Positions 5,843-52,306 of a DNA stretch of 52,306 bases are shown here, in pieces. The notes below the pieces were generated by a model that worked only from the letters and a program-made list of their open reading frames with translations, made no database searches and was not told the DNA's origin. The translations under genes were made by a program, and so were the position numbers. The stretch is from NCBI GenBank assembly GCA_001802865.1, contig MHAF01000085.1, positions 1-52,306 on the forward strand, written 5' to 3'. The first letter of the stretch is position 1; every line of letters starts with the position of its first letter. The stretch comes from Ignavibacteria bacterium RBG_16_34_14 (GTDB lineage Bacteria; Bacteroidota; Ignavibacteria; Ignavibacteriales; Ignavibacteriaceae).

Positions 5843-5872
5843 GCTTGTCATCAAAACACTATCCTCAAAGGT

Positions 5873-7138
5873 TTAGCCTCCATTAACCATCTTCTTTATT
5901 TTTTCAGAATTATGACGATTAGTTTTATACCTGACATGAATTTTATCATCATCATATTTTGTTGAAAGCACTTCTGCCATTGAATGAATCTTGGCGGCGG
6001 TTTTTGAATCATCCAAATTTAAAGCAACTTTGTCTTCCACAAAAGTATTTTCACTCATCTCAATTAGCTTATCAAGAAGTGCAGGAATATTTATTCCCTT
6101 CTCGGCAGAAACAATTATACCCTCTTTATAATTATTTTTAATGTAACCAATTTTATCTCTGTCACTCAGAATATCAATTTTATTAAAAACTTTTACAATA
6201 GTTTTTTTATCGCTTCCAATTTCTTTTAAAGTCTCTTCAACTACTTTAATATGTTCTTCAAAATAGGGATCTGAAATATCAATTATATGTAAAATGACAT
6301 CCGCATCCCTCACTTCATCTAATGTACTTTTAAATGAAGCTATAAGATTTGCCGGGAGTTTTCTTATAAAACCAACTGTATCGCTAAGCAAAATATTATG
6401 GCTCTTATCTAAGTTTAATATTCTCGTTGTTGAATCAAGTGTTGCAAAGAGTTTATCCTCAGCTAAAACCTCTGCTTCGGTAAGTCTGTTAAATAAAGTT
6501 GATTTGCCAACGTTTGTATAACCAACAAGACATATCTTTAAAAAATCTTTTCTTCCCTGTCTCTGTGTATTACGCTGTAACTCAATCCTTTTTAGATTTT
6601 CTTTAAGGTGGCTTATCCTGTTGCGAATAATTCTTCTGTCAGTTTCAATCTGTGTTTCACCGGGACCTTTTGTTCCAATTCCTCCATATTGTTTTGATAA
6701 GTGAGTCCATGCTCTCGTTAATCTCGTAAGCATGTATTGTAGCTGTGCAAGCTCAACTTGTGTTTTTGCTTCTCTTGATTTTGCTCTTGATACAAATATA
6801 TCCAGTATCAATCCGCTCCGGTCAATAATCTTCCTATTCAAAGTTCTTTCGAGATTTCTTACTTGCGTAGGGGAAAGATCGTCATCAAAAATAATTACAT
6901 CAATCTGGCTGCTTTCAACAATTGCGGCAAGTTCTTCGGCTTTTCCTTTGCCGATATAAAATGCAGGATCGGGAGAATTTTTTGATTGAATAATTTTCAT
7001 TATTGTTTCTGCCCCCGCAGTTGAAGCAAGTTCTTCAAGTTCTGAAAGATGTTCACTCACAATTTCATCATCAATACTTCTGCTATTTAATGCAACAAGT
7101 AAAGCTCTTTCTATTTTCTTTTGAGAAATTTCTATCAA
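5873..7138 (-). CDS. hflX: Ribosome-associated GTPase HflX
   Basis: HflX-family GTPase that binds the 50S subunit and splits or rescues stalled ribosomes under stress. The N-terminal HflX domain (residues 1–~195) contains the family loop GGIGTKGPGETQIETDRR. It is followed by a G domain with P-loop GYTNVGKST (206–214), DTVGFIRKLP and NKID. The 421-residue length is typical. The start is TTG at 7138: AGAGAAG lies just upstream and an in-frame TAA closes the frame before any ATG. It appears to be a single-gene unit with a strong terminator at 5819–5842. Identity is secure; the start codon is less so. Confidence 0.95.
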   Translation of the reverse strand: MIEISQKKIERALLVALNSRSIDDEIVSEHLSELEELASTAGAETIMKIIQSKNSPDPAFYIGKGKAEELAAIVESSQIDVIIFDDDLSPTQVRNLERTLNRKIIDRSGLILDIFVSRAKSREAKTQVELAQLQYMLTRLTRAWTHLSKQYGGIGTKGPGETQIETDRRIIRNRISHLKENLKRIELQRNTQRQGRKDFLKICLVGYTNVGKSTLFNRLTEAEVLAEDKLFATLDSTTRILNLDKSHNILLSDTVGFIRKLPANLIASFKSTLDEVRDADVILHIIDISDPYFEEHIKVVEETLKEIGSDKKTIVKVFNKIDILSDRDKIGYIKNNYKEGIIVSAEKGINIPALLDKLIEMSENTFVEDKVALNLDDSKTAAKIHSMAEVLSTKYDDDKIHVRYKTNRHNSEKIKKMVNGG

Positions 7139-7169
7139 TTTACTTCTCTTTATCTTTTATAAAACTCAA

Positions 7170-7247
7170 TGTATGTATAAGGTATAAAGGTAATAGGTTT
7201 TATATTTGCCATATACATTTATACCCTATACCTTATACCTCTGTACC
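7170..7247. repeat. Palindromic intergenic repeat, GGTATAAGG family, copy 1
   Basis: Left arm GTATAAGGTATAAAGG (7175–7190) is matched on the opposite strand by a right arm built from TATACC/CCTTATACC units (7217–7240). The middle is AT-rich. The same unit occurs at 36067–36137. It fills the gap between the hflX start and the VWA gene end. It looks like a MITE-like or REP-like hairpin element; no coding sequence is seen in it. Confidence 0.6.
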
Positions 7248-7286
7248 TGAACAATAATAATCAATTTTAATAAACCATTCCATCGG

Positions 7287-9389
7287 TTAAACTTCAGCCA
7301 ACTCCTTTTTAACATTCCTTGCGACCAGCATTTCAATCAAAGCAGTTAATAAAGCCGCCAAAAGAAAAAGTTTCCAGAGTTCTGAACCAAATCTCGCCTG
7401 CAATATTACCTCAACCGGATTTTGATCTTTATCAACTCTTAGATATGTTCCTTTAAAATTTATTTCTGAGAGATATTCTTCAAACTCATCATTGCTTACA
7501 GAATTTGTAACTGACTCAAGCGGATTATGATTAACCGCTATTTCATCAATCAATTCTTCTCCCGAATAAACTTTAACTATTCCTGCAAAATCTGTATTAC
7601 TATAAGAGAAAAAATTTGCCGCTGCAACTTCATCAGGGTTTATAAATTCTTCAGTTTTGTCAGGTTTCTCAATTTTAATTTGAGATACGCTTTTATTTCC
7701 AATATTTATATCAACCACGTCTCCGGCAAGAAATTTTTCTTCAGTTTCATTTTTTGATGTTAAGTAAAAAACAGATTTATTAATCAAAGGAGGAAAAATC
7801 CCTTTCAATGGAAAATCAGACCAGCTTAAAACCGGCGCAGTGTTACAAACAAAAACTTTCCCCTTCCCAACTTTATATTCGCTTAAGAAAGATGAGCCAT
7901 TCATTAAAGAAATAATTGTCGTCCCTTTTCCTTCAGAATTAATTTTTAAATGATGGTTAATCTCAGGCGATTCAATATTTCTTTTTACTCCTTCTGTAAA
8001 GATATTCTGAAAAACAGGATGATTAAATTCAGTCTTATCAAAATTTACGATATTATCTCTATTCTCTTTATTTCCAAATAAACCCTGAACCGAAGATAAG
8101 TTGAGTGCATTTAATAGACTTTGAAAACCTGACTCAGAAGTTTCATTTCCGGGAAATAAAAACAAACCTCCTCCATTTTCGGCAAATTGTTTAAATCTTT
8201 CCGGAGTGCTCAAATTTTCAGAACCAATTACAAAAGCAACATCAAACCGACTAAGATTAACCGACGATAATTGACTGAGATTTCTTTTGGTTATTTCAAA
8301 TGTTTTACTATCACCTGATGATTGAAGTGCAAGTTCAACAAAACGGGTATCTTTTTCCTCATCATAAAAAATAATTAAAGGAATTTTATCAGGAATAAAA
8401 AGAGTTGTATATCTCCTGTTATCCTGAATAATTTCATCATCTTCGATTTCAGCAAAAACATTATTATAACCTGCCTCTTTAATTAGAACCTCCATAGTAA
8501 CAACTGTTGAAGCTCCGGCTCCAAGTGAAACACTCTGCTGAGCAGTTCGTTCATCATTTATGAATAGTGATACAACAAGATTATTTATTTCATCTGAAGA
8601 ATAATTTGTAACTGTAACATTAATAACTACCGGCTTATCTTTTTCGAATATCTGGGTTTCAACTTTAATGTCATCAATGCCAACATTGTATATATCTTTC
8701 CCTGAATAATCGAAAGAGTATATTTTGACTTTTTCATCAAGAAGCTGGCTCAGATCGGAAAGAGAACCTTCTTCTGAAATTCTGCTTTTCTGAAAATCAG
8801 AAAAGATATAAACCTCTTTATTGAAGTTTTTTGATTCCGCTAACATTTCTGATGCTTTAACTACAGCATTATGCAAGTATCCGCTCGAATAAGCAGGTTC
8901 ATCCTCATCAACTTTATTAATAAGCTCCAATAGGTTTGTGGAAGGCTTTATCTCCCCTTTATTTTTTCCGGAGACAAGAATTAAAGCAGCTTCATCACCT
9001 TCCTGTAGATTTCTTATTAGTTCCTGAATAGACTCTTTTGCCTGGTTTAAGTAAGAGCCGTTAGCATCAACAACGGACATACTAAAAGTATCATCGAGGA
9101 TAAAAACAGCAGTTGTTTTTGCCGCTGAAGTTGTTCCTCCTATTGCAACGCCTTCAAGTGTTGGTCTTGCAAACGCAAAAACAAGAAGAAGTATAATTAA
9201 AACTCTCAATGCAAGAAGAAGCCACTGTTTAAGCTTAACTTTTCTAATCCTGTTTTTCTGCAGCTCTTTTAAAAAAGCTAAGGTGCTGAATTCAATCTTC
9301 TTTAACTTTCTTAAATTAAATAGATGGATCAGAACTGGGATAGAAGCAGCTAATAAGCCAAATAATACTGCGGGGTTGAGAAATGTCAT
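7287..9389 (-). CDS. BatA-like VWA-domain membrane protein
   Basis: Membrane-anchored protein with an N-terminal BatA (aerotolerance regulator N-terminal) domain. Two hydrophobic segments (about 5–24 and 55–75) flank the conserved basic LFNLRKLKKIEF region, followed by a von Willebrand A domain from about residue 94. The MIDAS metal motif reads D99-D-T-F-S103, with Thr where DxSxS expects Ser. A long β-rich extracytoplasmic part includes a glutamine-amidotransferase-like segment (about 330–520). One C-terminal membrane helix (LWKLFLLAALLTALIEML) ends the protein. Relatives are common in Bacteroidota, often near MoxR-type ATPases, which are not seen here. The exact role is unknown; protein-complex assembly or envelope stress is the usual guess. 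Confidence 0.85.
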   Translation of the reverse strand: MTFLNPAVLFGLLAASIPVLIHLFNLRKLKKIEFSTLAFLKELQKNRIRKVKLKQWLLLALRVLIILLLVFAFARPTLEGVAIGGTTSAAKTTAVFILDDTFSMSVVDANGSYLNQAKESIQELIRNLQEGDEAALILVSGKNKGEIKPSTNLLELINKVDEDEPAYSSGYLHNAVVKASEMLAESKNFNKEVYIFSDFQKSRISEEGSLSDLSQLLDEKVKIYSFDYSGKDIYNVGIDDIKVETQIFEKDKPVVINVTVTNYSSDEINNLVVSLFINDERTAQQSVSLGAGASTVVTMEVLIKEAGYNNVFAEIEDDEIIQDNRRYTTLFIPDKIPLIIFYDEEKDTRFVELALQSSGDSKTFEITKRNLSQLSSVNLSRFDVAFVIGSENLSTPERFKQFAENGGGLFLFPGNETSESGFQSLLNALNLSSVQGLFGNKENRDNIVNFDKTEFNHPVFQNIFTEGVKRNIESPEINHHLKINSEGKGTTIISLMNGSSFLSEYKVGKGKVFVCNTAPVLSWSDFPLKGIFPPLINKSVFYLTSKNETEEKFLAGDVVDINIGNKSVSQIKIEKPDKTEEFINPDEVAAANFFSYSNTDFAGIVKVYSGEELIDEIAVNHNPLESVTNSVSNDEFEEYLSEINFKGTYLRVDKDQNPVEVILQARFGSELWKLFLLAALLTALIEMLVARNVKKELAEV

Positions 9390-21240: not shown

Positions 21241-22158
21241 TTACCTAAGAGGATAAATTATTTTTTTAATTTGACTTTCAACCCTTTTTAATCCTCTGTT
21301 AAATAAATTTAGTTTTATTGATCTGAAATATTCTTCAAATATTTTTCTTGCTTCAATATTTTCTGAAATTTTTATTTTATCTATTTTAATAGGGATTTCG
21401 GATAAATCAGAATCAAAAGCTTTTGTTGATTGCACATGTGTTCCTAAACCTTCTGTGCCTATATTCTTAACTAACGATCTTCCCGGATATAGAGTCAGTT
21501 TCTCATTTACAAATGCTGAAGCATACCATTTTATAGCCCACGAGTCAATTTCACCCTTAATCTGCTGCTTAAGCATCTTGATGTAATTATAACTTTCATT
21601 AAAATCAAATTCTCTTTCGAGATTTCCTCTCATTATCTGTTTTAACAACCGCTCTGCACTATCTTGGTATAAACTCCAACCTCGGTTCCATGTAGCCCAA
21701 CCCCAACAGTCAGCTCCTCTTAAAAAAAAAGTTTCAGGCAATTTTTCTTTAACTGGATAAACATATCCGTGTATACTTATAACATCTTTTTCAGATTCGT
21801 ATAAGCGCAACGCCTCATTCATATATTTTAGAAAGAAGGCGGAAAGGAAAAGATCATCTTCGAGTACTATCGCTTTTCCATACCTTTCAACTATTTCCGT
21901 AACTCCAGATGTAATTGATTTTGCAAGACCTTTATTTATCTGACTTTCCTTAATAACAACATTCTTATATCCATTTATCGTCTTTAAATATTCTCTTACT
22001 TCAGAAACTGATTTCTTATCTTTTTGGGATTTAGGAGCATCAGAGTAAATAAATAATTCGCTTTCTTTTGCTAAACTATTTTTACTTAATGAGTCAATAG
22101 TTTGCTTAGTATATCGCGGACGATTATAGACAAATAAAATTATTGGAGCTAAATTCAT
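21241..22158 (-). CDS. Glycosyltransferase (GT-A, family 2 / GNT-I-like)
   Basis: A 305-residue GT-A glycosyltransferase. It has PIILFVYNRPRYTKQTIDSL at the N-terminus, the metal/nucleotide motif VLEDDLFLS near residue 96, and GADCWGWATWNRGW, which is characteristic of this capsule-locus subfamily. A decayed tandem relative lies at 24459–25274 on the same strand. It probably adds a sugar to the surface glycan; specificity is unknown. Confidence 0.85.
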   Translation of the reverse strand: MNLAPIILFVYNRPRYTKQTIDSLSKNSLAKESELFIYSDAPKSQKDKKSVSEVREYLKTINGYKNVVIKESQINKGLAKSITSGVTEIVERYGKAIVLEDDLFLSAFFLKYMNEALRLYESEKDVISIHGYVYPVKEKLPETFFLRGADCWGWATWNRGWSLYQDSAERLLKQIMRGNLEREFDFNESYNYIKMLKQQIKGEIDSWAIKWYASAFVNEKLTLYPGRSLVKNIGTEGLGTHVQSTKAFDSDLSEIPIKIDKIKISENIEARKIFEEYFRSIKLNLFNRGLKRVESQIKKIIYPLR

Positions 22159-24462: not shown

Positions 24463-25274
24463 TTTAGAATTTTTCTAAATCCTTTTTTTATATAGCCTGG
24501 ATTAATTGATTTGAAATATTCTTCAAAAAGTTTTTTTGCTTCATCATTTTCTTCCATTTCTATTTTCTTAACATCAACTGGAATCTCAGACACTCAACAT
24601 CAAAATCATTCGTTTCTTCGAAATGAGTGCTACTTCCAGTAGTACCAATATTTCTCACTAATGATTTTCCCGGATAGAGAGTAAGTCTATTATTAATGAA
24701 AGCAGATGTATTCCATTTTAGTGCCCATGAGTCGATCGCACCTCTATTTGGTTCTCAAGCATTTTTGTATATGGATAACTTCCGTTAAGATCAAATTCAT
24801 TTTGCAGTTACCTTTTTTATTTCCCTTAATAGTTTTTGCGCATCATCCTCAAAAAGATTCCATCCCCTTTTCCATGTTGCTCAGCCCCAGCAGTCAGCAC
24901 CTTTAAGAAAAAAGGTTTCAGGTAGTTTTTTCTTTACCGGATAAACATAGCTATGAATGCTTATCACTTTTTCTTCATTTGCATAAAGAGTTAGGGCTTC
25001 ATTCATATATTTCAGAAAATAAGGAGAAAGTTCGAGATCGTCTTCAAAAATAATTACTTTACCAAATTCTTTAATTATTTCCGTAATTCCTAAAGTAACT
25101 GATACTGCTAGTCCTTTATTTACCTGACTCTCATGTATCTCAATATTTCGTAAACATCGGAATAAATAAATAACTCGCTCTCATCAGACAAATAATTTTT
25201 TAACTAGGACTCTAATATTTTTTTAGTGTGAAGAGGCCTGTCATATACGAAAAGATTATGGGAGTTTTATTCAC
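24459..25274 (-). pseudogene. Decayed glycosyltransferase, paralogue of the 21241–22158 gene
   Basis: On the − strand this stretch follows the intact gene at 21241–22158 from a GTG start (NKTPIIF) to the C-terminus (GYIKKGFRKILK). It is broken by several frameshifts and stops. A TAG lies at 25204–25206. A TGA at 24881–24883 replaces the second Trp codon of GADCWGWATW. It is about 100 bases shorter than the intact copy, so small deletions have occurred as well. The final TGA overlaps the FkbM ATG. This is a clear pseudogene unless the assembly is poor here. Confidence 0.88.
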
Positions 25275-48200: not shown

Positions 48201-49292
48201 ATGAAACTAAATATCAATATCAGTTTAACAATGATCCAACTGCTATTATTATTTTTATTATTCGACAGCAGTAGTGTTTCTGCTCATTGCGATGGACTTG
48301 ATGGACCGGTCGTGAAGGCAGCTATAAAAGCAATTGAGACGGGTAATGTTAATTATGTGCTTATATGGGTTCAGAAAGCAGATGAAGAAATTATAAAGAG
48401 TGCTTTTAACAAAACTCTTATTGTCAGGAAACTGAGTAAAGATGCACAGGAACTTGCTGACATGTATTTCTTTGAAACCCTTGTTCGGATTCATCGTTCA
48501 GGTGAAGGCGAACCTTACACCGGTCTTAAACCTGCCGGAAGGGATCTTGGTCCCGCAATTCCCGCAGCAGACAGTTCGATTGATAGAAATTCTTTGAACC
48601 AACTTGAAAAAGTCCTTGCTGGCCAAATTCCAGATGAGATAAAAGACTTGTTTAATAATGCAGTTTCCAAAAAGGATTATAGTATTGATGATGTTGATGC
48701 TGGTAGAGAATATGTTAAAGCATATGTTCAGTTTATCCATTCAGTCGAAGTTTATTACGAAACCGGTGAATTACATCATGAAAGTCATACACATAAAACA
48801 GAAATAAATCAACACGAAACAACGAAACACGAAGGAGAAAAGGCAATGGAATTTAAAATTCCGGAATCAATGAAAATTGAGCATGAAAAACTTCATGCAA
48901 TTCTTGCTGAAGCAACTAAAGAAGAAGGGGAAATTGGTACGACTGCAAAAGAAGTTGCAAAAGTTTTGCATGGTCATTTTGTTAAAGAAGAAGAGATTGC
49001 AATTCCACCCCTTGGATTGCTCGCTGAAATTTCGAGAGGACATGTAACCGAGGATATGAGACCGGTTACAAAAATGACCGATAGGCTAAAAGCAGAATTA
49101 CCTCAAATGCTAGAAGAACATAAACAAATTGTTCGGGCACTCAATAAATTTGAAGAGGTTGCTAAAAAGATGAACAGAAAAGATTATGTAGATTTTGCAG
49201 AAGACCTTAAACTTCATGCTAAGAATGAAGAAGAAGTAACATATCCAACATCTATTTTAATCGGTGAATTCATAAAACTCAAATTAAAATAA
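48201..49292 (+). CDS. Exported DUF6448-type protein fused to a hemerythrin (HHE) domain
   Basis: A 363-residue exported protein. A signal peptide ends SVSA and the mature chain begins with HCDGLDGPVVKAA, the DUF6448-type opening; that domain runs to about residue 190 (GEGEPYTGLKPAGRDLGPAIP). A His/Lys-rich linker (about 191–213) leads to a hemerythrin-like four-helix domain with metal-ligand candidates EHEKLH, LHGHFVKEEE, EEHKQI and LHAKNEEE. Hemerythrin domains bind a di-iron centre and react with O2 or NO. GAAAGGAA precedes the ATG. A ribosome-binding-like GGAG stands 8 bases before an internal in-frame ATG at 48846, so a shorter, cytoplasmic hemerythrin product is possible. It probably starts the NO/O2-related gene set. 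GTGT-N9-ACAC at 48147–48163 may be an operator. Confidence 0.85.
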   Translation: MKLNINISLTMIQLLLLFLLFDSSSVSAHCDGLDGPVVKAAIKAIETGNVNYVLIWVQKADEEIIKSAFNKTLIVRKLSKDAQELADMYFFETLVRIHRSGEGEPYTGLKPAGRDLGPAIPAADSSIDRNSLNQLEKVLAGQIPDEIKDLFNNAVSKKDYSIDDVDAGREYVKAYVQFIHSVEVYYETGELHHESHTHKTEINQHETTKHEGEKAMEFKIPESMKIEHEKLHAILAEATKEEGEIGTTAKEVAKVLHGHFVKEEEIAIPPLGLLAEISRGHVTEDMRPVTKMTDRLKAELPQMLEEHKQIVRALNKFEEVAKKMNRKDYVDFAEDLKLHAKNEEEVTYPTSILIGEFIKLKLK

Positions 49293-49370: not shown

Positions 49371-49670
49371 ATGTTTATCAACACAATTGAATTTCCTTCG
49401 ATAAAAGTTGGGAAAGAATCCGATTTTCTTGAATGGTTTAATTGGTCGAACTCTGTTTATAAAAATTTTGATGGATTTATTTCACGGCGGTTATTAAAAC
49501 TCACAAAAGGAAGTAAAAACTACGTTACTTTAGTTGAACACGAAAGCGAAAAAACTTTTATGGCAATGCATACCAGCAAAGAACGTCAAGACGCTTTTAA
49601 CAAATTAAAACCTTTGTTAGACGGTTCACTTAATGCAAAATTTTATGAAGTAATTATTGACACGGTGTGA
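49371..49670 (+). CDS. ABM-type (antibiotic biosynthesis monooxygenase fold) protein
   Basis: A 99-residue protein of the dimeric α+β ABM fold (KVGKESDFLEWFNWSN, FDGFISRRLLKL and YVTLVEHESEKTFMAMH). Relatives include heme-degrading and quinol monooxygenases and many of unknown role. No conserved heme His pattern can be assigned by eye. GGGAG precedes the ATG. Its place before membrane oxidoreductase genes suggests a part in heme or radical chemistry, but this is inferred from context. Confidence 0.7.
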   Translation: MFINTIEFPSIKVGKESDFLEWFNWSNSVYKNFDGFISRRLLKLTKGSKNYVTLVEHESEKTFMAMHTSKERQDAFNKLKPLLDGSLNAKFYEVIIDTV

Positions 49671-49711
49671 GGGGTAAAATGTGTGTAAGTAAACCATAGT
49701 ATAAATTGCTT

Positions 49712-50170
49712 ATGTTTTCTACTGTAAGATATTTCATTAAGACCAGTATAATATTCCTTCTATTAGGAATAGTAACTGGTCTTTATTTGTTAATCGCACG
49801 ATACTATTTTGGTATTTGGCACCATCCTGATCTTATCTCTGCACACACCCACATCATTCTTGTCGGTTTTGTAATGATGATGATCATGGGCGTTGCACTA
49901 TGGTTTTTTCCACGACCCGAAAAAGATGATAAATTATATAATCCAGCTCTAATTCTAACAACTTACTATATCATCACTGTCTCGACGATTATTCGATTTA
50001 TTTCAGAAGTTGTTTCTTCTTGTTTAACTCCAACAGAAATACTAAAATTTATTCTTACAATATCAGCCATCGGTCAGGTTGTAGGTATTGTTCTATTTTT
50101 CATCTCAATGTGGGGAAGAATTAGATCTGTTGGTAGTCATATTCGAGAAGCAAAAGGAGAGAAATTCTAA
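49712..50170 (+). CDS. Four-helix heme-copper-oxidase-like small membrane protein
   Basis: A 152-residue membrane protein with four helices. SAHTHIILVGFVMMMIMGV (helix 2 area) has the HxH of the heme-copper oxidase subunit I heme-ligand helix, and ALWFFPRPEKD follows. Such short proteins are often called 'cbb3-type subunit I-like' and lie next to NO-reductase-like genes. It could carry heme or assist assembly. I chose ATG 49712; the frame opens at TTG 49706. No strong ribosome-binding site is seen. Confidence 0.7.
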   Translation: MFSTVRYFIKTSIIFLLLGIVTGLYLLIARYYFGIWHHPDLISAHTHIILVGFVMMMIMGVALWFFPRPEKDDKLYNPALILTTYYIITVSTIIRFISEVVSSCLTPTEILKFILTISAIGQVVGIVLFFISMWGRIRSVGSHIREAKGEKF

Positions 50171-50248: not shown

Positions 50249-50797
50249 ATGATTGATTCAAATATTGTCTTAATAGGACAGGCAATAGCTTATACACTAT
50301 ATGTTCTGATTATAATGATTCTTATTGGTTGGTTTGGTTATAATATAACACGCCAAGGCAAAAGTAATGTAATTAACCCTAAATTATTTTATTCTTTAGT
50401 TGCATTGTTAGTCCTAATTGGTGTATCTCTTCACATCGTTACTCACGAAACAATTCCATGGAAGTCGATGGATTTAAATAGAGCTTCAATTAAAGCGGAT
50501 AAAACTTTTTATATCAGCGTTGCTAATCACAAATTTAATTTACCTGCTGAAAAAATGATCATTAAAACAAACAATAAAGTCTTGTTCAACGTTACATCTG
50601 AAGACTTAACTTACGGATTTGGATTATTCCGGCAGGACAATTCAATGCTTTTCCAGATGCAGGTTTTACCCGGTCACAAGAATGATATTCTCTGGCAATT
50701 TGATAGACCGGGAATTTACTCTATTCGCTCAACAGAATATTCCGGACCAAAGGGAATTAAGATGATTGAAAAAAACGCTGTTATAGTAACCAATTAG
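50249..50797 (+). CDS. Subunit II-like cupredoxin membrane protein lacking CuA
   Basis: A 182-residue protein with two N-terminal membrane helices (about 12–32 and 47–64) and a C-terminal cupredoxin domain as in heme-copper oxidase subunit II. The CuA ligand loop (normally C-x3-C-x3-H-x2-M) reads Ser161, Ser165, Gly169 and Met172 (STEYSGPKGIKM), and the other His reads Tyr122 (TYGFG). The fold is kept but the dinuclear copper site is gone, as in quinol oxidase subunit II (CyoA). It probably pairs with the next gene's product. GGGTGAAAC precedes the ATG. Confidence 0.85.
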   Translation: MIDSNIVLIGQAIAYTLYVLIIMILIGWFGYNITRQGKSNVINPKLFYSLVALLVLIGVSLHIVTHETIPWKSMDLNRASIKADKTFYISVANHKFNLPAEKMIIKTNNKVLFNVTSEDLTYGFGLFRQDNSMLFQMQVLPGHKNDILWQFDRPGIYSIRSTEYSGPKGIKMIEKNAVIVTN

Positions 50798-50844: not shown

Positions 50845-51591
50845 ATGAATTTTTTACAAACACTAACCAACGGAGAAGAGGGGTTGTTCAAATCTGATAC
50901 CTTAACTCCTATGCAAAAAATGACTTTGAGGTTTGTTGTTGTTGGTTTGCTTTATTATGGCTTTGTCGTCGTTGAAGGTATGATAATGAGAACTTATCAG
51001 GTAACTCCTATTTCCCTGATCCCTCCAAATCAATATTTCGCAATACTAACCGCACATCCGCTTGTCGGAATTTTTGGTTCTACTTATTCAATTGTTTTTG
51101 GTGCTTTTCTTTTTCTCGTCCCTTTCTTAATGAAAAAACCATTGTGGAGCATTAAACTTGCAAACTGGACTTGTGGTTTAGTCGGAATTGGTACTTTTAC
51201 TTTTTGGTTTTCAGGATTCCTAACCCACTATGCTCCTCTTTATACTTTATACTGGCCGCTTCCTGCAGATTTCACACAGTTTAGTGTTTGGGGTGGAACA
51301 TTTTTTATATTCGGCATTGCTTTAGTTATGTTAGGAACCGTTTTCTTTGTTATAAATGTTTTTAAAACAATTACCTACACACCGGAGGACAGGGAAAAAC
51401 AACCAGCCAGTGCTTTGCTTTCTTCTGCACTTGGCATAAGCGGTCTCAAAAACCTTTTTAGAAAAAACAAACAAGAACATTTGGTTTCTTTGCCAGTTGC
51501 TGCTATTGCTCGCGGAACTGTTGATACGGCATTTAATGCTATAGTTATTCTTTTCACAGGGGTACTAATTCTGGTTTATATGATTGCATAA
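50845..51591 (+). CDS. Heme-copper oxidoreductase subunit I, N-terminal part, ended by in-frame TAA
   Basis: A 248-residue product covering helices I–V of a heme-copper oxidoreductase catalytic subunit. His71 in LTAHPLVGIFG (helix II) matches the low-spin heme ligand. The frame ends at TAA 51589–51591 after LVYMIA, but the very next codon continues the family sequence (LFGVSL …) in the same frame to the window edge. A one-base change GAA to TAA would explain it. It is either a nonsense mutation or base-call error, or a truly split protein. GGGTTTTAAA precedes the ATG. The likely reaction is NO or O2 reduction. Confidence 0.85.
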   Translation: MNFLQTLTNGEEGLFKSDTLTPMQKMTLRFVVVGLLYYGFVVVEGMIMRTYQVTPISLIPPNQYFAILTAHPLVGIFGSTYSIVFGAFLFLVPFLMKKPLWSIKLANWTCGLVGIGTFTFWFSGFLTHYAPLYTLYWPLPADFTQFSVWGGTFFIFGIALVMLGTVFFVINVFKTITYTPEDREKQPASALLSSALGISGLKNLFRKNKQEHLVSLPVAAIARGTVDTAFNAIVILFTGVLILVYMIA

Positions 51592-52306
51592 TTGTTCGGT
51601 GTAAGCTTAAGACATTCAGCAATTGATGCACTGCTTTATAAAAACTGGTTCTGGTGGGGATTAGATCTAATTGCTGATGGACTCGTACTGATCTTTGTAG
51701 CCGGAACATGGTACTTACTTGCAACTTTGATTACCGGTAAAAAACTATTTATGGAAAACTGGGCTCGGGCAGCTCTGTTTGTAGAGATGATTGTAAGCTG
51801 GACTGTATGGTCACACCACTTAATGTCCGATCAGGCACAACCTGGAATCTTAAAAATCTTATCTGGGGAAATGGTTACTGCTTTTGAGCTTATCACACAG
51901 GGACTTGCCTTCTTCATTACCTTAATTACACTCTGGAGCGCCAGACCAATTAAAATGACAAATCCGTTAAAGTTTTTATTAGGTGGTTTACTTGGTTTTG
52001 CTCTTGCTGTTCCGGCTGGTATTATGCAAGCTGATTTAGGTCTGAACAGAATTTTGCATAACACACAATGGATTGTCGGTCCTCACGTACATGTAGCAAT
52101 TTTAGTTGGATTGACCATGACCCTATATTCAGCAATCTATTATTTGCTTCCTATACTTACTAATGGTGCTAAACTCTATAGTCAGAAGCTTGCAAACTTT
52201 CATTTCTGGGCGCATCTTCTTGGTGGTATCGGTATGGGTGCCTTTATGGGAATGGCTGGTTTGAATGGAATGTTAAGAAGAACAATATATTTTGAAGGTG
52301 AGTTTA
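51592..52306 (+). CDS. Heme-copper oxidoreductase subunit I, C-terminal part (partial, cut by window)
   Basis: Same frame as the preceding gene after its TAA; open to the window end (238 codons). Numbering from TTG 51592: helix VI NWFWWGLDLIADG has Asp25 and Asp29, helix VII has His75-His76 (VWSHHLM), and helix X has His165 and His167 (GPHVHVA). Spacing (25→75→167) matches cNOR NorB (207→258→349), so Asp25 replaces the helix VI metal His and Asp29 the active-site Glu. A noncanonical NO-reductase-like enzyme is suggested. Translation could restart at TTG 51592, directly after the stop, but no ribosome-binding site is visible. Confidence 0.75.
   Translation, partial: MFGVSLRHSAIDALLYKNWFWWGLDLIADGLVLIFVAGTWYLLATLITGKKLFMENWARAALFVEMIVSWTVWSHHLMSDQAQPGILKILSGEMVTAFELITQGLAFFITLITLWSARPIKMTNPLKFLLGGLLGFALAVPAGIMQADLGLNRILHNTQWIVGPHVHVAILVGLTMTLYSAIYYLLPILTNGAKLYSQKLANFHFWAHLLGGIGMGAFMGMAGLNGMLRRTIYFEGEF

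Follow-up and report, generated by a model that had tools for sequence, protein, structure and literature searches.

A single in-frame TAA codon (51589-51591) interrupts an otherwise whole gene for a heme-copper oxidoreductase catalytic subunit, and we regard it as an isolated nonsense difference of a single base in this draft, for which an error of consensus or assembly is the favoured cause, at somewhat better than even chances. Being most likely either a sequence error or a very recent mutation, the lone TAA is ordinary.

The interrupted gene

The window, i.e. the whole stretch of 52,306 nucleotides that was analysed, corresponds to one entire contig, C85. The draft genome to which it belongs is 79% complete and totals 2.74 Mb over 174 contigs. 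The gene and its surroundings lie at its 3′ end as follows.

48201-49292: gene joining a DUF6448 and a hemerythrin domain, just upstream
49371..49670, + strand: 99-residue protein with no Pfam match, by eye like small proteins of the antibiotic-biosynthesis-monooxygenase type
49706..50170, + strand: small four-helix COX1-like protein
50249..50797, + strand: CoxB-like partner subunit with no evident CuA motif (by eye)
50845..51591, + strand: N-terminal part of the gNOR-like heme-copper oxidoreductase catalytic subunit, 248 codons (helices I-V) followed by the in-frame TAA
51589..51591, + strand: the in-frame TAA, followed by T, found in none of the relatives
51592..52306, + strand: the gene's C-terminal part from helix VI on, ending at the contig edge and resuming on contig C14 at base 34

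The frame that starts at ATG 50845 closes at the TAA, and from 51592 it stays open in the same register for 238 codons up to the window end, just as the earlier note had read it. That note also held that the family fold runs on past the stop, and this was borne out by the Pfam COX1 profile (PF00115), where the N-terminal piece covers positions 2-147 and the C-terminal piece positions 195-413, so that the two are consecutive. Both pieces score above the curated cut-off, in agreement with the family assignment proposed before, and the match of the sequence read through the stop reaches 183 bits. Read by eye, the TAA would be placed between helices V and VI. A chance juxtaposition of open frames was considered and ruled out, because both sides of the stop are conserved in 80 relatives.

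The missing C-terminus is supplied by C14 of the same draft, whose start is identical to the last 33 nucleotides of the window (52274-52306), the overlap being of exactly this length. The part on C14 agrees with the ends of the relatives' proteins and closes with a normal TAA, and the two contigs appear to be neighbours. The catalytic-subunit gene is therefore whole save for the single TAA. It may be noted that a second copy of this gene was searched for in the draft and not found; the draft yielded just one other full COX1-family gene, on C107, and this is of the ordinary cytochrome c oxidase type.

Identity of the enzyme

That the gene belongs to the catalytic subunits of heme-copper oxidoreductases is shown by its sequence motifs. 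The histidines H71, H324, H325, H414 and H416 are invariant (26 sequences for H71, H414 and H416), and helix VI carries the motif DLIADG; the heme-ligand histidines of helices II and X are conserved, and the HVH motif aligns with that of the cbb3 subunit CcoN. D278 is invariant too and falls at the expected position of the active-site tyrosine, as placed by eye and without a structural alignment of helix VI. gNOR is listed with Asp in place of this tyrosine (PMC8756737), and gNOR (norGH) has been described as a proposed NO reductase that is encoded by two genes, oxidises quinone and is non-electrogenic (PMC8906906). Our gene resembles gNOR in being a heme-copper catalytic subunit and, to judge from alignment by eye, would share with it the Asp at the tyrosine position; the adjoining CoxB-like subunit without an evident CuA motif fits the two-gene, quinone-oxidising description. 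It differs in a second invariant Asp (274), which takes the expected place of a CuB histidine. Judged from motifs and published descriptions, the catalytic subunit fits a gNOR-like assignment, and the enzyme may have a role in NO removal. By eye, the two invariant Asp residues (274 and 278; motif residues 273-279) occupy the places that His and Tyr or Glu take in other heme-copper enzymes.

The CoxB-like gene adjoins the catalytic gene in 80 of the 80 relatives, and a homologue of the Rrf2-type regulator of locus L019 lies near it in 46; a relative of the DUF6448-hemerythrin gene is found nearby in 9, and the four-helix COX1-like protein and the 99-residue protein in 5 each.

Comparison with relatives and selective constraint

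The earlier note had proposed comparing the same locus in related genomes, and this check was run on the best 80 relatives in the genome collection (76-91% identity, 487 residues compared; loci L007 and L013 left out). All 80 are uninterrupted over the 487 residues, and no stop inside the gene was found in any of them. Two whole-genome surveys, of 146 near and 395 phylum-wide genomes, also found no copy with an internal stop; one relative's copy is interrupted by contig ends only. The residue at the stop site varies across the relatives, being mostly Ala, Glu, His or Ser. Since the site is variable and no relative carries a stop there, a split at this position is not a feature of the family. 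Glu occupies the site in the nearest relatives and in the Ignavibacteria relatives that were inspected, which bears out the earlier remark that the TAA is one base away from GAA.

The claim that both halves are under coding constraint held as well, with low dN/dS on either side of the TAA. Comparison with the three nearest relatives, restricted to cases short of full dS saturation, gave a dN/dS of about 0.04-0.07 for the N-terminal part and 0.02-0.03 for the C-terminal part; the corresponding values between pairs of intact relatives are 0.05-0.11 and 0.01-0.04. Against every relative dS is saturated or nearly so. Counting as near-invariant those columns that are conserved in at least 97% of the other sequences, we found 2 of 263 broken in the interrupted copy, which gives it rank 15 of 81. 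Neither dN/dS nor the near-invariant columns gave any sign of decay or relaxed constraint downstream of the TAA, and by these sequence measures both halves are under strong purifying selection, as much as in the intact relatives. It follows that the stop is either very young or absent from the organism.

Other lone stops in the same draft

A scan for single stops with coding sequence on either side was carried out on 1.32 Mb of the draft. As candidates had to pass a coding-potential filter, the number of cases given here is a minimum. Besides the oxidoreductase gene, three genes with a lone stop and intact flanks were obtained, i.e. a rate of about 4 lone stops per 1.3 Mb with the oxidoreductase gene included.

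C3 (locus L103), 5843-7402, - strand: RNase Y gene interrupted by a single in-frame TGA (scan, and comparison with 58 genomes)
C10 (locus L126), 9887: YdeI-like gene, single in-frame TGA in place of the relatives' Arg codon
C94 (locus L153), 1613: FG-GAP-like gene, single in-frame TGA at a codon that reads Trp in relatives

The RNase Y gene is present in all 59 genomes searched, and none of the 58 others carries a stop in it. Only 2 of the 298 near-invariant columns are broken in this copy, namely the stop and an invariant residue two codons on, and both changes are apparently of the same type of base change. Two unlikely changes so close together, in a core gene that is faultless elsewhere, look like a local consensus error.

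Most of the remaining stop candidates of the scans resembled adjacent genes or antisense shadows, and a TGA in a DNA-methylase-like fragment on C5 was not counted, the upstream part of that fragment being degenerate. In a control of 0.40 Mb from a single-contig relative we saw no clear lone-stop case, where about 1.2 would be expected at the rate of the draft, a sample too small to show a difference. Also, in the window itself, the glycosyltransferase gene at 21241-22158 has a decayed copy with several stops (near 24883) on the - strand at about 24480-25200.

Weighing the explanations

The earlier note had left four options, of which sequence error and a recent nonsense mutation survive, while a two-chain enzyme restarting at TTG 51592 and stop read-through find no support: no relative is split, no ribosome-binding site is seen, the termination context is strong and the draft contains other lone stops. 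An error is more likely than a genuine mutation. In its favour, every relative has an uninterrupted gene, both halves of this copy are as conserved as intact ones, and further lone stops occur in the draft, above all the RNase Y stop with its neighbouring second change; also the draft is fragmented, and the oxidoreductase gene itself is severed by a contig end. Against it stands the lack of a second odd change beside the oxidoreductase TAA, in contrast to RNase Y. If the TAA is an error, the organism's gene would encode a single, normal subunit (about 540 residues) of a heme-copper oxidoreductase of gNOR-like type, and its translation would require nothing out of the ordinary. A genuine and very recent nonsense mutation, or a strain variant in the sampled population, is a serious contender that we place at rather more than one chance in three. 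A single substitution suffices to reach TAA from the Glu codon of the nearest relatives, real pseudogenes do exist in this genome, as the decayed copy of a glycosyltransferase near 24883 demonstrates, and the oxidoreductase gene is accessory, the genome survey finding it absent from most relatives including both genomes of the same genus. Real recent pseudogenes could also be the source of the approximately 4 lone stops per 1.3 Mb. Yet constraint is not relaxed past the stop, for which reason such a mutation would have to be very recent, and the lone stops of the draft also strike RNase Y, intact in all the other genomes searched. Error and genuine mutation would look the same in the assembled sequence.

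The two remaining options would each be a lineage-specific innovation seen in no relative, and even jointly we give them a very small chance. A C-terminal half that is made on its own by restart at TTG 51592 and then pairs with the N-terminal half is highly improbable: a potential start codon does lie directly 3′ of the stop and the break falls in a variable loop between helices, but this TTG is an ordinary Leu codon common to intact relatives, no Shine-Dalgarno-like sequence precedes it (AAAGG or AAAGGA is found 5-11 nucleotides upstream of the starts of the catalytic, CoxB-like, 99-residue and hemerythrin genes of the region), and no split copy occurs in the 80 relatives or the genome surveys. 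The N-terminus of such a half would also start outside the membrane according to the inferred topology, and the further start codons after the TTG fall within or past helix VI. Programmed read-through of the TAA into a full-length protein has less chance still. The full coding constraint past the stop would agree with it, but of the bacterial stops TAA leaks least, and T is the preferred, non-leaky base to follow it (PMC6764699), so that TAA-T is a strong terminator here. Besides, TAA closes this gene and many of its neighbours, the scanned stretches, which make up part of the genome, gave no tRNA whose anticodon would read TAA, and the stop is conserved in no relative.

In the split cox1 of some mitochondria the break is fixed in lineages and the pieces are expressed separately. 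The likeness is that in both cases the gene for a heme-copper catalytic subunit lies in two open pieces; the difference is that here we have a single stop in one genome and a second piece without start signals. The lone nonsense codons of draft metagenome-assembled genomes, which arise from consensus error or recent mutation, offer the closer parallel in one stop, intact flanks, whole relatives and further cases in the same assembly, and we found no trait that distinguishes the present case from them.

Implications

The observation is of little importance in itself. It does remind us that a claim of a split or recoded protein from a lone stop in a draft should wait until the stop has been weighed against how often such stops occur elsewhere in that assembly. 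If the mutation is genuine, translation would yield a fragment of five helices that lacks the active-site ligands of helices VI-X. That one strain would then have lost the enzyme, which probably removes NO, and the stop would mark a loss of recent date.
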